DNA from: a virus
Direction: 5' to 3' (one strand)
Length of the DNA: 26,064 nucleotides
IMG/VR virus record: IMGVR_UViG_3300021139_000125
Location: 1-26,064 of that record
In this document: positions 382-6,616 of the stretch, one piece after another
Layout: every line of letters starts with the position of its first letter
Position numbering within the stretch: the stretch's first letter is position 1
Notes under the pieces: model-generated
The model's database searches: none
Seen by the model: only the letters and a program-made list of their open reading frames with translations
Told to the model about the DNA's origin: nothing
Translations under genes and position numbers: made by a program

Positions 382-780
382 ATGGTTATCACCCCAGAAC
401 AGCTCCGCTTCCTTCGTGACCAACGCCGCATGACACGGGAAGAACTCGCCAAAGAACTCGACTGCTCCGCTGGGGCCATTGTTCACTGGGAGGGTGGCAA
501 ACGCGAAATCCCCTTCTGGGTCGCCGACAAGATGTTCGCCAAAATGCCCGTGAGCTTCACCATTCAGGAGCTCGCCGAAATGTACGATCTCTGCCGCGAG
601 GAAGCCATGGGCATGAGTGAGCTCATCCAGGAAGCCGTGCGCTCCAAACTCGAACAACGCCGGGCCTCACAAACGCCACCAGCTACGAAGTTTGCCCAGT
701 TCCCCGCACAGCAGCCGTCAAGCCCCGTCGCCGAAGATCCCCGCGACCAACACAAAGCCAAAGACGGCACCAACGACTAG
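382..780 (+). CDS. XRE-family HTH regulator, likely phage repressor
   Basis: The 132-residue protein opens with a Cro/C1-type helix-turn-helix (about residues 4-50): PEQLRFLRDQRRMTREELAK, then a Ser-Ala-Gly-Ala recognition helix and HWEGGKR. The middle (55-92) is helical and may dimerise. The last 40 residues are Pro/Gln/Ala-rich and look disordered. It is the only clear plus-strand gene, divergent from the early operon, with its start two bases after the last operator half-site. Hence it has essentially no leader and no Shine-Dalgarno, so the message is probably very short-leadered or leaderless. A good terminator follows. It is the best candidate for the lysogeny repressor, but it is shorter than lambda CI and has no LexA-type cleavage domain, so induction would need another route. 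Confidence 0.8.
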   Translation: MVITPEQLRFLRDQRRMTREELAKELDCSAGAIVHWEGGKREIPFWVADKMFAKMPVSFTIQELAEMYDLCREEAMGMSELIQEAVRSKLEQRRASQTPPATKFAQFPAQQPSSPVAEDPRDQHKAKDGTND

Positions 781-869: not shown

Positions 870-2042
870 CTAGGTGCACGGGGAAAGCTCCCAGAACTTC
901 TTCGCCTCCGCCGGCGTCGTCTGCCCACGGTAGTGCTTATAAATCAGCTCGGCATTCACATGCCCCATGAGCATCTGCAGGCGCTTCTCGTCGCCATGCA
1001 GCGCCAGCCACATCGTGGCAAAGGTGTGCCGCATCGCATCATGCGGCCAGCCATCGAGCAGCTTCACCGCCTTTCGCAGGGCCTTCCACTTGCGGACGAA
1101 ATTCGTCGGCAGGATTTTCCCTTCACGGCTCGGGCACAGCGCCAGCCAGGCCCGTGCATTCTCAGGCAGATCCACCACACGCCTGGACCTCGACTTCGCC
1201 GTGTGGCCACGCACCCAGACCACGTCCTCACGCACCGCATCCCACGTCAGCTCTCCTAGCTCACGCTCCGGCCGCAAGCCACAGAACAGCCCCAGGGCCG
1301 CCACTGCCAGGCAATCCCGAAAATCCACCTGCTCAAGATCCTGCTCAACCCACACGCCCTTCTCATCGCGCCGCAGTGCCCCCGGCTTCACCATCGCCGC
1401 CCTGGTCAGCAACCGCGCCACATCATCCACCTGCAGGAACTCGATCTCCCCATCCGCGATCTTCTTTCTCGGCACCGCATCACACGGGTTCATCGTCAGA
1501 TACTTCTGATCGATCCCCCACTGAAACAACGTCCGCAGATCGGTCCGGTAGTTGTTCCAAGTCTTCTCCGACCACTCATTGTCACGCAGCCACCCCGTGA
1601 TGTCATCGCACACAATCTCATGCGCCAACCGCCCGCCATGCCCCGCCTTCGCGAACTTCTCAGTCGGCGATTTGAACTGCTTCAAATACCGCTCGCTCTG
1701 CCCTTCCTCCCTCTTCGCCGCAATGCACATCGTGATCAGCTCATCCAGTTTCACCGGCTCTTTCGCCGGCTTCGCGTGCCGCAAATAAAAATCCACCGCC
1801 TCAGTCATCGAGGCCCCCACCGCCTGCAGTCGGTCGCGCAGCTGCATAAACAAAAGCCGGTCAGCCTCGCTCAAAGTAAAAGCCTGATGCCCGGATTCCT
1901 TCAAGACGGCTTTGAGTCTCGCCATCTCCGCCATCGCATCGTCTTTGTTGGCAAACGACAACTGCTTGCGTTTCCCATTGATCAAGCCGCAGTCAAGCTG
2001 CCAGCTAAACCCGTTTCGACACTTGCGTTTTCGCAGGTTCAT
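870..2042 (-). CDS. int: Tyrosine-recombinase integrase
   Basis: The 390-residue site-specific recombinase would join attP to the host tRNA-Met gene and, with helpers, excise the prophage. The layout has three parts: an N-terminal arm-binding-type domain (1-50), a SAM-like core-binding domain (about 95-185, including the WNNYRTDLRTLFQWG helix) and a catalytic domain (about 200-380). Visible catalytic residues are R257 in GLRP, K283 in TAKS, the HDAMRH box with R338, H361 in MGH and Y371 in KHYRG. The gene overlaps the upstream GIY-YIG gene by ATGA, so the two are translationally coupled. The first 42 residues closely resemble the start of that GIY-YIG protein. Placement beside the tRNA-derived attP fits this role. 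Confidence 0.93.
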   Translation of the reverse strand: MNLRKRKCRNGFSWQLDCGLINGKRKQLSFANKDDAMAEMARLKAVLKESGHQAFTLSEADRLLFMQLRDRLQAVGASMTEAVDFYLRHAKPAKEPVKLDELITMCIAAKREEGQSERYLKQFKSPTEKFAKAGHGGRLAHEIVCDDITGWLRDNEWSEKTWNNYRTDLRTLFQWGIDQKYLTMNPCDAVPRKKIADGEIEFLQVDDVARLLTRAAMVKPGALRRDEKGVWVEQDLEQVDFRDCLAVAALGLFCGLRPERELGELTWDAVREDVVWVRGHTAKSRSRRVVDLPENARAWLALCPSREGKILPTNFVRKWKALRKAVKLLDGWPHDAMRHTFATMWLALHGDEKRLQMLMGHVNAELIYKHYRGQTTPAEAKKFWELSPCT

Positions 2043-2647
2043 TTGGAAGGCACCGGGTAGTCCTGGATGTTGTATTCAGGCCGTAAGCGCTGAATCCATT
2101 CGCGCTCCACTCGGTGCATCTGCGCCGGTGGCACAGCCAGCCAGGCCACGGCATCAAACTTCTTCAGCCCCTCTGCCAGGTGATCATGCACGCGGCGTAA
2201 AACACTCACAGCCTGCCCCACATACACCACCACATTCTCTCGGAGAAGGAAATAAACCCCCGTCGCCTGGGGGATGGAATGCATCACCAGCTTCTCGCGC
2301 AGATCGAACAAAGCGTCAGGAACCAAGACTGCCACCTCCCACGACTTCAAAGCCGCCAGCTTTCCCTCAAGTTCAAAAATCCTTTGCTTCGCATTAGTCA
2401 GCTCCCCCACTTGAGCCAGCAGCTCCGCGTTCAGATGCTCCAATTCAGCGACCCTTTGATCCAGAGCTCCGAGCTTTTCAAAAGGCAATCGCCCCTCGGT
2501 TTTGAACGAGGACTGCTGTTCAGCCAGTGCAGCCAGAGCCGCTTCTTTCGTCTTGAAAGAAAGCTGCATCCTCCTGCCCTCAACGATCCCGCAATCAAGC
2601 TGCCAAGAGACATTTCCAGATGGAAGTTTACGCTTTCGGACTTTCAT
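2039..2647 (-). CDS. GIY-YIG nuclease-like protein with integrase-type N-terminal domain
   Basis: The 202-residue protein has three parts. Residues 1-42 are paralogous to the integrase N-terminus: both carry RKRK, SWQLDCG and QLSF at matching positions. Residues 55-101 form a leucine-rich coiled coil. Residues 125-195 form a GIY-YIG domain with GVY (130-132), YVG (142-144), an Arg pair at 151-152, catalytic-type Glu181 and the terminal RLRPEYN motif, so the key catalytic residues look intact. The gene ends in a four-base overlap with the integrase and is the first gene left of attP. I infer that it binds the same att-region DNA as the integrase, perhaps as a recombination accessory, or is a homing-type nuclease that captured the domain. 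A GAGG lies one base from the ATG, closer than usual. Confidence 0.85.
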   Translation of the reverse strand: MKVRKRKLPSGNVSWQLDCGIVEGRRMQLSFKTKEAALAALAEQQSSFKTEGRLPFEKLGALDQRVAELEHLNAELLAQVGELTNAKQRIFELEGKLAALKSWEVAVLVPDALFDLREKLVMHSIPQATGVYFLLRENVVVYVGQAVSVLRRVHDHLAEGLKKFDAVAWLAVPPAQMHRVEREWIQRLRPEYNIQDYPVPSK

Positions 2648-2817
2648 ACCTCAACATTAATCAGACGCGTTACACGTTTGCAACATATTATCCATTTTGC
2701 CGTAACGCTTAAAATGTCACGAATGGTCATTTTCCATCCATTTACCGCCATCCATCCCCAACGCCCTCCCCAGACGCAAAAACGCCCAGTATCACTGGGA
2801 CACTGGGCGTTTGAGAT
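2648..2817. other. Integrase-side flank of attP, candidate arm-site region
   Basis: This non-coding, A+T-rich stretch lies between the GIY-YIG start and the tRNA 3' end. Visible structure includes GCGTTAC (2668-2674) inverted as GTAACGC (2703-2709), two direct copies of CCATCCAT (2735-2742 and 2749-2756) and the stem-loop at 2780-2812. GATAAT on the minus strand (about 2690) could be a -10 for the integrase operon. The repeats sit where integrase arm-type sites are expected, but the functional role is inferred only from position. Confidence 0.4.
2780..2812. terminator. Stem-loop terminator beside attP
   Basis: AAACGCCCAGT (2780-2790) pairs perfectly with ACTGGGCGTTT (2802-2812) around an 11-nt loop. 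On the minus strand it lies just beyond the tRNA CCA end. After integration it would become the terminator of the restored host tRNA-Met gene, or it could shield the integrase operon from late read-through. T-tracts are short on both sides, so efficiency is uncertain. Confidence 0.65.
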
Positions 2818-2868
2818 TGGTTGCGGGAGTAGGATTTGAACCTACGACCTTCAGGTTATGAGCCTGAC
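2818..2868 (-). other. attP: attP core: 3' part of tRNA-Met(CAT) including CCA
   Basis: On the minus strand this reads as the anticodon arm with CAT anticodon, variable region, a perfect 5-bp T stem (GTAGG/CCTAC) with loop TTCAAAT, the acceptor strand TCCCGCA, discriminator A and CCA. The sequence beyond 2868 (about 2869-2900) does not form a D-arm or 5' acceptor strand, so only the 3' portion is present. Phages that integrate in tRNA genes carry exactly such a 3' segment to rebuild the gene on insertion. TCAGG/CCTGA in the anticodon stem suggests initiator tRNA-fMet, but without the 5' half this is not certain. Confidence 0.85.
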
Positions 2869-2991
2869 GAGACTTTGTTCATTATCAAAGGTTTATGACA
2901 TTCTCGTAACTCGCGAGTCACATCTTGGAGGTTTTCAGGTTTTCGGACTGAAGACGACATTGAGAGCAATGCTGGCTTACTGCGGAATGGC
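2869..2991. other. Non-coding lysis-side flank of attP
   Basis: This stretch lies between the tRNA-derived core and the end of the GH75-type gene. The only structure I see is a 10-bp palindrome, ACTCGCGAGT (2909-2918). No convincing coding frame or terminator is visible. It corresponds to the P or P' flank of attP and may hold further integrase binding sites. Confidence 0.4.
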
Positions 2992-4828: not shown

Positions 4829-6384
4829 TAAGACTGATCTGCGACTGCCCAGAGGACGTGCGCACCACCCGTCGGGATGGTGCCAGCACCGAGCTGCGCC
4901 ACGAGGTCAAGGCCCTGCAGGCCTGTGTAAGCGGTCCATTTGTCGTAATACGGGCCAGCTCCCATGACGTCGGCAGTGAAGCCCGAAAAAGGTACAGCGG
5001 CGGCGCAGGGGTAAAAAGATTCCCCGTCCCACAAGCCTATGGATACAGTGACATTGCTCGGATCGGACGTAGAGCTAGCGGTCGTGAAGCCCCCGACTGC
5101 TACCATCTTGATCTGCTTGCCGGACACGCCGGGAATGAGGGTCACCTGTGTCACCTGCCCGGAGGGCGGGCCATCGCTGCCACTGCCACCGCCGGTCACA
5201 TACCAGCCGCTGCTCATGATTGTGGCATTGACTTCTACGAGCGAGCCTGTGGCGGAGTCAAAGCCCGAAAAAGTGCCAGCGCCTAGGTAATACCAGGTGA
5301 GGGTGTCGGTGAGATTGAGTGCAGTGAGCGCTGCCACGATGGCGAAGCCCATCGTGTCGAGGTCGGTGCCATACTGCACCCACACCACACCGCCAGGATC
5401 GCTGTCAGAAATCACCACCTGGGCCGTCCATTCGTACCCTGAGAGGTAAAGTCCTGCGCCATCCGTTATGCCGTCATACGTGCAATACAGCGGCGGCGGC
5501 GCTGTCGGATTCGGTGGTGTGATACAGCCTTGCAATGTGCCAATGCCACGCTGCAAAGGACTGCCCGCCGCTGCCACCGCTGTGGCAATGGCCGCGTTCC
5601 TCGCCGTGGCTTCGCTCGCCACGGCAGTGCTGATGGCCGTGCCGCGCGCTGCGGCTTCGCTCGCCACAGCAGTGCTAATGGCGGCGTCTCGCGCCGTAGC
5701 CTCCGCAGCTACCGCAGTGCTGATGGCCGTGCCGCGTGCTGTGGCTTCGCTCGCTATTGCCTCTTCGCGTGCTGTGGCTTCGCTCGCTATTGCCTCTTCG
5801 CGTGCGGTCACCTCCGCAGCAATCGCCGCCGCATTCGTTGCCAGCCCTGGCACGCTCAGTAGCCTCGTCGTGTCATCATGAGCGAAGCCCCCGGCATCGG
5901 TCGCGTGCGCCGTGAGCCACTGCCAGCGCTCGGCATCCACAGGGTCAGACGCTTGATCCTCCGGACGCACATACGAGTTCTCAAAACTCATCGGCACATC
6001 GATCTGCTCCGTCGATCCCGCCAACGCGTATTGAATGGCGCAGATCATCGCCGCCGGGGTCGTGGCTCCCGCGAGCGCGGCGCGCAGGTTGTCGCTGTCC
6101 GCGTAGTCCCAGGCGAATGAGTACAGCGTCGTGTTACCACTGCCTGCAACCACCGGCGAAGACGACTGCAGCAGCGCCGGCGAGCCATCCGGCGCGTCCA
6201 CCAGCTTGATTTCCATCAGCACACTCGCCACATCCACCGGGATGATCGTCCCAGTCCCATCAAAGAAACGCACGTTGAGCACGAGCTCCGCATACAGCTT
6301 CCCCCGCACATTTGGCAGCGCCGTGCCCGAGGTCGCCGCGCGTGCGACAAGATTGACGGTGTCGATAAAGATGTTGCTGGTCAC
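4828..6384 (-). CDS. Tail fibre/tip protein with trimeric coiled-coil repeats
   Basis: The 518-residue protein has three regions. Residues 1-165 are a beta-rich N-terminal domain that probably attaches to the tail tip. About residues 175-270 are a run of 11- and 15-residue repeats of the EATARxxAI type, strongly predicted to form a coiled-coil stalk. Residues 280-518 are Gly/Thr/Ser/Tyr-rich and beta-like, the likely receptor-binding end. It is the largest distal tail protein and precedes the lysis module, as fibres often do. The GTG start at 6384 is 12 bases after a TTTGACAC motif. Host recognition is inferred from architecture and position. Confidence 0.72.
   Translation of the reverse strand: MTSNIFIDTVNLVARAATSGTALPNVRGKLYAELVLNVRFFDGTGTIIPVDVASVLMEIKLVDAPDGSPALLQSSSPVVAGSGNTTLYSFAWDYADSDNLRAALAGATTPAAMICAIQYALAGSTEQIDVPMSFENSYVRPEDQASDPVDAERWQWLTAHATDAGGFAHDDTTRLLSVPGLATNAAAIAAEVTAREEAIASEATAREEAIASEATARGTAISTAVAAEATARDAAISTAVASEAAARGTAISTAVASEATARNAAIATAVAAAGSPLQRGIGTLQGCITPPNPTAPPPLYCTYDGITDGAGLYLSGYEWTAQVVISDSDPGGVVWVQYGTDLDTMGFAIVAALTALNLTDTLTWYYLGAGTFSGFDSATGSLVEVNATIMSSGWYVTGGGSGSDGPPSGQVTQVTLIPGVSGKQIKMVAVGGFTTASSTSDPSNVTVSIGLWDGESFYPCAAAVPFSGFTADVMGAGPYYDKWTAYTGLQGLDLVAQLGAGTIPTGGAHVLWAVADQS
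5600..5820. repeat. In-frame 33/45-bp coding repeats of the fibre stalk
   Basis: A 33-bp unit is repeated perfectly in tandem at 5735-5767 and 5768-5800 (11 residues each). Imperfect 45-bp units (15 residues) extend from about 5600 to 5735. The units keep frame and encode the EATAR coiled-coil repeats, so length change by slippage would lengthen or shorten the fibre stalk. Confidence 0.85.
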
Positions 6385-6406
6385 GCCGAATGCAGCGTGT
6401 CAAACA

Positions 6407-6616
6407 TCAGGCCGGGAAGGTGGTCGTTTGGGAATCAATCGTCACTACCTGGTTGGTGCCAGGCACTGGGATCTCAAAAGCATATTCGTCCGCAGCGTCA
6501 GGCACCGTGAAGGTGATCGGGTCCGAGTAGGAGTACGTGTTCGGCAGGTTGCGGCCATGTCGTATTGACGTAGATGTTGAATTCCACGAAGCAGCACGCG
6601 TGTCAAATTCAGGCAC
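6407..6616 (-). CDS. Small tail-region protein, probably frameshifted
   Basis: The frame from a GTG at 6616 gives 69 residues. Its C-terminal part (NTYSYSDPITFTVPDAAD onward) looks like a genuine beta-rich protein, but its first 25 residues do not. Another frame starts with GTG at 6587, 12 bases after TTTGACAC, and reads VEFNIYVNTTWPQPA. Skipping one base after GCC (about 6543) joins it to NTYSYSDPITF. The combined product would be about 59 residues. I think the real gene starts at 6587 and is broken by a one-base insertion, a sequencing error, or read through +1 frameshifting. No family is recognised; neighbours are distal tail genes. Confidence 0.5.
   Translation of the reverse strand: MPEFDTRAASWNSTSTSIRHGRNLPNTYSYSDPITFTVPDAADEYAFEIPVPGTNQVVTIDSQTTTFPA

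Follow-up and report, generated by a model that had tools for sequence, protein, structure and literature searches.

A phage GIY-YIG nuclease with an integrase-type arm-binding domain, putatively directed at attachment-site DNA

The integrase-nuclease gene pair and its attachment site

The window, that is, the entire stretch of DNA analyzed here (26,064 bases of an IMG/VR virus record), contains the genes of a tyrosine integrase (P0002) and of a GIY-YIG nuclease (P0001) on the same strand (Table 1). The two open reading frames have 4 nt in common, the ATGA at 2039-2042, in agreement with the overlap given in a preliminary description of this DNA. An HTH gene converges with int, and because the window and the viral contig L265 have the same arrangement, the int/HTH pair is regarded as a conserved module. 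The host of the phage is probably a member of the Verrucomicrobiota, since relatives of the integrase occur in Akkermansia phages and in genomes from the order of an Akkermansiaceae MAG. Exact-peptide scans of viral contigs yielded no close relatives of P0001 or P0002.

Table 1. Genes, protein domains and putative attachment-site elements of the window
Feature	Position	Strand	Basis or remark
HTH protein gene, convergent with int	382..780	+	homologue (40%) arranged alike in L265
Tyrosine integrase P0002, 390 aa	870..2042	-	Pfam Phage_integrase E 1.1e-7; PHROG integrase E 1.7e-28
P0002 N-terminal domain of the arm-binding type, residues 1-51	1890..2042	-	BLASTP to P0001; other integrase N-termini
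GIY-YIG nuclease P0001, 202 aa	2039..2647	-	ORF and translation; fold match to UvrC GIY-YIG 1yd6, probability 1.00
P0001 GIY-YIG catalytic domain, residues 128-195	2063..2266	-	Y132, Y142, R152, H156, E181, N193
P0001 coiled-coil linker, residues 56-101	2345..2482	-	one long helix in the predicted structure
P0001 N-terminal domain, residues 1-51	2495..2647	-	homologous to integrase arm-binding N-terminus; 26/56 identical to P0002
Candidate arm-type site GTGTAACGC	2667..2675	-	tentative; 20 bp from P0001 start codon
Candidate arm-type site CCGTAACGC	2700..2708	+	contains CGTAAC
Candidate terminator or structural element	2780..2812		14-bp inverted repeat
Putative attP core, tRNA-Met 3' end including CCA	2818..2869	-	exact 52-nt match in many bacterial genomes
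Candidate arm-type site TCGTAACTC	2904..2912	+	other side of the core; CGTAAC basis

On its upstream side, P0001 is next to a 52-nt stretch of tRNA-Met, 49 nt of which are placed exactly at 2818-2866; Akkermansiaceae MAGs are among the bacterial genomes that contain the stretch in exact form. Since this is the 3' end of a tRNA in a 26,064-nt window that contains no complete tRNA, and since it is flanked by phage reading frames on either side, attP is the best interpretation, and P0001 is indeed the gene beside attP that it had been said to be. A 3.2-kb contig of an Akkermansiaceae MAG (L098) carries the same tRNA-Met sequence together with a related integrase and is probably another element with the same attachment site.

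The three candidate arm-type sites of the window are a weak, post hoc proposal made by comparison with L265, in which five ACGTAACAC repeats surround the core region. The site at 2667, in its + strand form GCGTTACAC, has two mismatches to these repeats; the other two are suggested by CGTAAC, which occurs just 4 times in the 26 kb and has two of these copies in the attP region (likewise suggestive and post hoc). A de novo repeat search of the attP region of the window gave nothing significant. The inverted repeat between the arm region and the core is 93% complementary and has a 5-nt loop.

An integrase-type N-terminal domain

The N-termini of the nuclease and the integrase had been described as alike at about half of their positions, and an alignment of residues 1-56 of P0001 with residues 1-55 of P0002 agrees with this: 26 of 56 residues are identical and 36 of 56 are similar (BLASTP), the common segment includes RKRK, SWQLDCG and QLSF, and the E value of 1e-13 rules out chance similarity. 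At the DNA level the two domains are only 55% identical, with identical codons at 10 of the 26 identical residues, and the relationship is therefore old and does not reflect a recent duplication. The more specific claim that the nuclease carries the domain of this very integrase lacks support, because the N-domain trees have no resolution on the neighbouring integrase as the donor.

The same segment matches the N-termini of integrases from Verrucomicrobiota (L125, L123, L118, L122 and L137) and that of the L265 integrase (56% over 41 aa); as these other integrases begin with it, it represents an integrase N-terminal domain family. In the best AlphaFold2 model of P0001 (mean pLDDT 77; 71-89 per block of ten in residues 1-50), strands at 2-7, 13-22 and 25-31 are followed by a helix at 34-51, and this beta-beta-beta-alpha fold, the three-stranded sheet plus helix of an arm-binding domain, was predicted in two models. 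Foldseek gave no confident PDB match for the N-domain, and the Pfam arm-domain models stayed below their cut-offs with P0001. The sequence family and the predicted fold together support the assignment of the segment to the integrase arm-binding domain family, as had been proposed. When P0001 was searched in 388 genomes of the phylum of G001, only single-domain matches were obtained.

An intact GIY-YIG nuclease domain

In the model, the N-domain is followed by the long coiled coil and a domain at residues 130-188 with the order strand-strand-helix-strand-helix, which is the correct one for a GIY-YIG fold. The nuclease part matches the UvrC GIY-YIG structures 1yd6/1ycz with an E value of 2e-4 (Foldseek). 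P0001 itself misses the Pfam cut-off for GIY-YIG (PF01541; 15.6 bits vs 22.6), and several of its relatives clear it, for example, L159 with 23.3 bits. Among 74 distinct domains, the catalytic Tyr/Tyr/Arg/Glu set is invariant (Y132 73/73, Y142 74/74, R152 74/74, E181 74/74), H156 (71/74) is nearly so, and N193 is found in 62/74. As far as sequences can tell, this is the pattern of a nuclease that has been kept active, and both the modelled fold and the active-site residues agree with the coiled coil and apparently intact nuclease domain of the preliminary description. The defence families PDC-S14 and UzuA were considered for P0001 and rejected, because the matches span just part of the GIY-YIG domain.

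Recurrence with a second integrase type

A search for other arm-type domains joined to GIY-YIG near int found two, in L164 and L172, each with the N-domain of its own integrase type. In L164, a 69.9-kb contig from the family search, a 162-aa GIY-YIG protein starts with MPRARNPENLDLPKRWKLHHGAYYYLVP and the neighbouring integrase with MPRPRNKENNGLPKRWKLHHGAYYYLVP, and the two N-domains are 64% identical over 56 aa; the corresponding value for L172 is 62% over 50 aa. The integrase type of L164 and L172 has no detectable N-domain similarity to the integrase of the window, and the combination is thus found with two arm-domain types in three phages, these being only three examples, two of them related. 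The nucleases of L164 and L172 have an overall identity of 46%, and a single fusion origin is probable for them, because their N-domains have the substitutions PEN, DLP and WN in common, which are absent from the integrases. As both N-domains sit on long branches of the N-domain tree, the specificity of these nucleases may have drifted from that of the integrases.

L164 contains a second GIY-YIG gene (5855-6481, minus strand), which is located 187 bp from the integrase and has another N-terminus (around TYWTIRHNFNGELWPRLWPTEADAWKML), so that two GIY-YIG genes flank one integration module.

The nuclease gene is tied to the attP arms

Arm-type repeats were found around the cores of these phages, with GAATTACGCA in L172 and its relative L264 and AATAACCCAC in L164; there are four copies each, in the layout +,+,core,-,+, and GTGGGTTATTC-type repeats are kept in L253, L254 and L255. 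Exact 8-mer arm repeats are present in three or four copies, in comparison with a maximum of two in shuffled sequences. The nuclease ORF of L164 runs up to the outermost arm repeat, and that of L172 contains both outer repeats in its 3'-terminal part. Both genes lie on the side of the CCA end of the tRNA and point to attP, irrespective of int, which is located to the left in L172 and to the right in L164; P0001 is located on the same side, but points away from attP. In L172 the gene order is int, a hypothetical gene and the GIY-YIG gene, the last two of which overlap. The nuclease gene is thus tied to attP rather than to int, and an operon with int, which had been put forward for the window, lacks support as an essential feature, because the L164 gene is outside the int operon and yet abuts attP.

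The two arm sites nearest to the nuclease gene of L164 are TCGGGTTATTC and GTGGGTTATAA, in comparison with TTGGGTTATTC in L254 and L255, and one outer site of L172 is GAATTACGCG in place of GAATTACGCA. These deviations would be compatible with self-avoidance by alteration of the phages' own sites.

The wider GIY-YIG family

The family comprises 58 distinct GIY-YIG clusters. A tyrosine integrase is present in the DNA examined for 15 of them, and in 13 of these 15 the gap to the integrase is at most 300 bp; uniform placement would predict about 7% per locus, and the resulting binomial tail of about 1e-11 is rough, as the loci are uneven in length and the clusters partly dependent. The 43 clusters without an integrase in the DNA examined have other N-termini, and some of them are found on plasmids and some on phages without a nearby integrase. 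The GIY-YIG module is rare in the genomes sampled: a profile search gave one weak match in 387 genomes of the order of G001 and none in 369 genomes of another class.

These data bear on the possibility that the arm-type domain is a generic DNA-binding module of a homing nuclease that has its target elsewhere, with the place at attP being no more than the site of pick-up. It would fit the many different DNA-binding modules of the wider family and its many members without a nearby integrase, as well as the long branches of the L164 and L172 N-domains. However, the L164 and L172 genes have the same position relative to the arm repeats in spite of the different positions of int, and the family is enriched beside integrases, and this possibility therefore appears quite improbable.

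AlpA and HTH_17 domains belong to types known from excision control. Three family members are fusions of such domains with GIY-YIG, namely, L199:5674-6273 (AlpA, E 3.5e-14), L246:5770-6210 (AlpA, E 5e-9) and L244:5866-6309 (HTH_17, E 6e-7); they lie 19-215 bp from tyrosine integrases and apparently represent excision-control-type DNA-binding domains joined to a nuclease. Several family loci have an extra small HTH/Xis-like gene between the nuclease gene and int (assigned by eye).

Further family members occur on plasmids. A GIY-YIG protein of the Methylovorus plasmid pMsip01 (L158:3776-4684) has a C-terminal LuxR-type GerE domain (E 1.9e-6) and an N-terminus that, by eye, resembles the integrase arm/AP2-like domain; its annotation is LuxR-type regulator only. 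The GIY-YIG protein L157:2809-3378 of a Morganella plasmid belongs to a large subgroup, together with proteins of L159, L160, L174, L180 and L192, that has the basic N-terminal motif TPEERKAIAAKxxATRRA in common; in the Morganella plasmid, a TrbI-family gene and a KfrB-domain gene flank the nuclease gene.

Empty sites in relatives

The nuclease gene is sporadic. L264 shares int, the hypothetical gene, the arm repeats and the tRNA core with L172 (82-91% DNA identity over most aligned pieces and 75-80% over the rest), and is without the nuclease: the segment next to the arms has about 467 bp in L172 and about 153 bp in L264, and the two sequences become alignable again within the 3'-terminal part of the nuclease gene, roughly 30 bp short of the first arm repeat. 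Similarly, L253-L255 align with L164 across int up to the core (68-72%) and are without the nuclease, and the L164-type integrases of L252-L264 have no GIY-YIG gene in the DNA examined. The sole nuclease-free comparison for the window is L265, a distant relative of its int region (integrase 36.7%, convergent HTH gene 40%), in which int lies directly beside the arm repeats with no nuclease in between. The gene of a homing or target-linked endonuclease would be expected to show just this, namely, sporadic insertion where the domain of the encoded protein finds its recognition site.

The empty sites also bear on a role of P0001 as an accessory or directionality factor of recombination, which would bind the attP arms, compete with or help the integrase, or favour excision, while the nuclease domain nicks or merely bridges DNA. 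Several observations can be reconciled with such a role, that is, the arm-binding family of the N-domain, the translational coupling to int in the window and the int operon in L172, and the fusion of family members to AlpA and HTH_17. A directionality factor should, however, be a constant partner of the integrase, and the gene is missing in L264 and L253-L255, close relatives that have int and attP in common with its carriers, so that it is presumably not needed for recombination. In addition, several family loci have the separate small HTH/Xis-like gene between nuclease and int, and the catalytic residues are retained although an architectural role does not need them. The earlier suggestion that the nuclease assists or controls excision has thus lost ground, and a pure recombination factor, downgraded on account of the empty sites, is considered unlikely.

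A putative mobile endonuclease directed at attP arms

Targeting of P0001 to attachment-site DNA is the most economical interpretation, because the N-domain belongs to an integrase family, the active site is intact and conserved, and the same combination is found beside attP in independent phages. The interpretation that is favoured here, with somewhat more confidence than doubt, is that P0001 is a mobile endonuclease directed at attP arms that acts in a homing- or interference-like fashion. The N-domain would dock on the arm-type repeats of attP, the coiled coil would space the nuclease from it and perhaps dimerize the protein, and the GIY-YIG domain would cut DNA near the arm repeats. The nuclease gene would be a mobile unit linked to the attP arms, and, most likely, related phages or prophages that have the same arm sites but lack the nuclease would have their attP cleaved. 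In a cell with such a relative, the break would damage the attP of the latter, and its repair would copy the gene in; the cleavage would thus spread the gene by homing and also handicap a competitor. As the phage's own attP has similar arm sites, a mechanism of self-protection would be required; its attP might be spared by occupancy with Int, by altered own sites or by low expression.

It is conceivable, though held with a little less confidence than the contrary, that a recurrent class of compact GIY-YIG att-site nucleases exists, which would repeatedly acquire the modules by which mobile elements recognize their own att sites (integrase arm, AlpA or HTH_17 domains), be located at attP and cut, or home into, the att sites of related elements. 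If such a class is real, competition for integration sites would be shaped by these enzymes. The integration sites of phages would then be contested, or entered by homing, by other phages, with the recognition domain of the integrase as the guide of a nuclease, which could explain the fast change in attP arm sequences and integration modules. Such enzymes would also be compact natural nucleases with predictable targets, and the L172/L264 pair allows a direct test with cloned DNA.

Comparison with known systems

The closest described enzyme to P0001 is Odn (Gp88), the origin-directed nuclease of the Vibrio phage ICP1 (Barth, Nguyen and Seed 2021, PMC8263062). Its N-terminal domain is 42% identical to RepA_N of PLE1, its C-terminus is a T5orf172 nuclease of the GIY-YIG superfamily that is related to putative homing endonucleases, and it has been proven experimentally that it cuts the PLE replication origin; to the knowledge of its authors, it is the first anti-MGE gene to have arisen when a sequence-specific binding protein was captured and joined to an endonuclease domain (PMC8263062). 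P0001 is likewise chimeric, with an N-terminal domain akin to a site-specific binding protein of an element and a C-terminal GIY-YIG domain. However, the Odn domain resembles the replication initiator of a rival satellite, whereas P0001 has one of the integrase arm-binding family; its own genome also encodes the neighbouring integrase, and attP takes the place of the replication origin as the presumed target. The nuclease parts also differ, as P0001 and its relatives have no Pfam match to T5orf172 and belong to a compact, other GIY-YIG group.

The design of Odn, together with the coupling to int in the window and the conserved active site, could be taken to mean that P0001 is solely a domesticated weapon, which destroys the attP of superinfecting or resident rivals of the same arm specificity and does not home. 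The fixed position at the arm repeats and the sporadic presence are, however, better explained by homing, and the phage's own attP would be a potential target as well; this view is thus regarded as rather improbable. Should an att-directed endonuclease be confirmed, the principle of Odn would extend beyond a single phage-satellite pair and would hold for temperate phages with several types of integrase.

Free-standing GIY-YIG homing endonucleases of the I-TevI type, which include F-TevI and the Seg proteins of T4, are a second point of reference. P0001 resembles this type in having a GIY-YIG domain that a linker connects to a distinct DNA-binding part, and in the sporadic occurrence of the gene by its presumed target, with empty sites in relatives. 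In I-TevI the nuclease is N-terminal and the DNA-binding part C-terminal, whereas P0001 has the reverse order, with an integrase domain as its putative binding part and with attP as its presumed target in place of a coding gene or an intron site. With excision regulators of the AlpA/Xis type, the family is connected by the integrase-adjacent AlpA- and HTH_17-GIY-YIG fusions, but P0001 itself has no such HTH, and several family loci add a separate small HTH gene.

The arm-binding N-terminal domains of tyrosine integrases are AP2-like, as in lambda Int and Tn916 Int. The first ~50 residues of P0001 are similar to these domains in place, size and predicted beta-beta-beta-alpha fold, but are not followed by a recombinase catalytic domain. 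The view that P0001 does not belong to a described system holds in part: searches of open-licence papers found no description of an integrase arm domain joined to GIY-YIG, and none of a link between GIY-YIG and integrase, excisionase or attP, whereas Odn has the same design with another domain and another target. The proteins described here have the Odn design with an integrase domain and, presumably, attP as the target.
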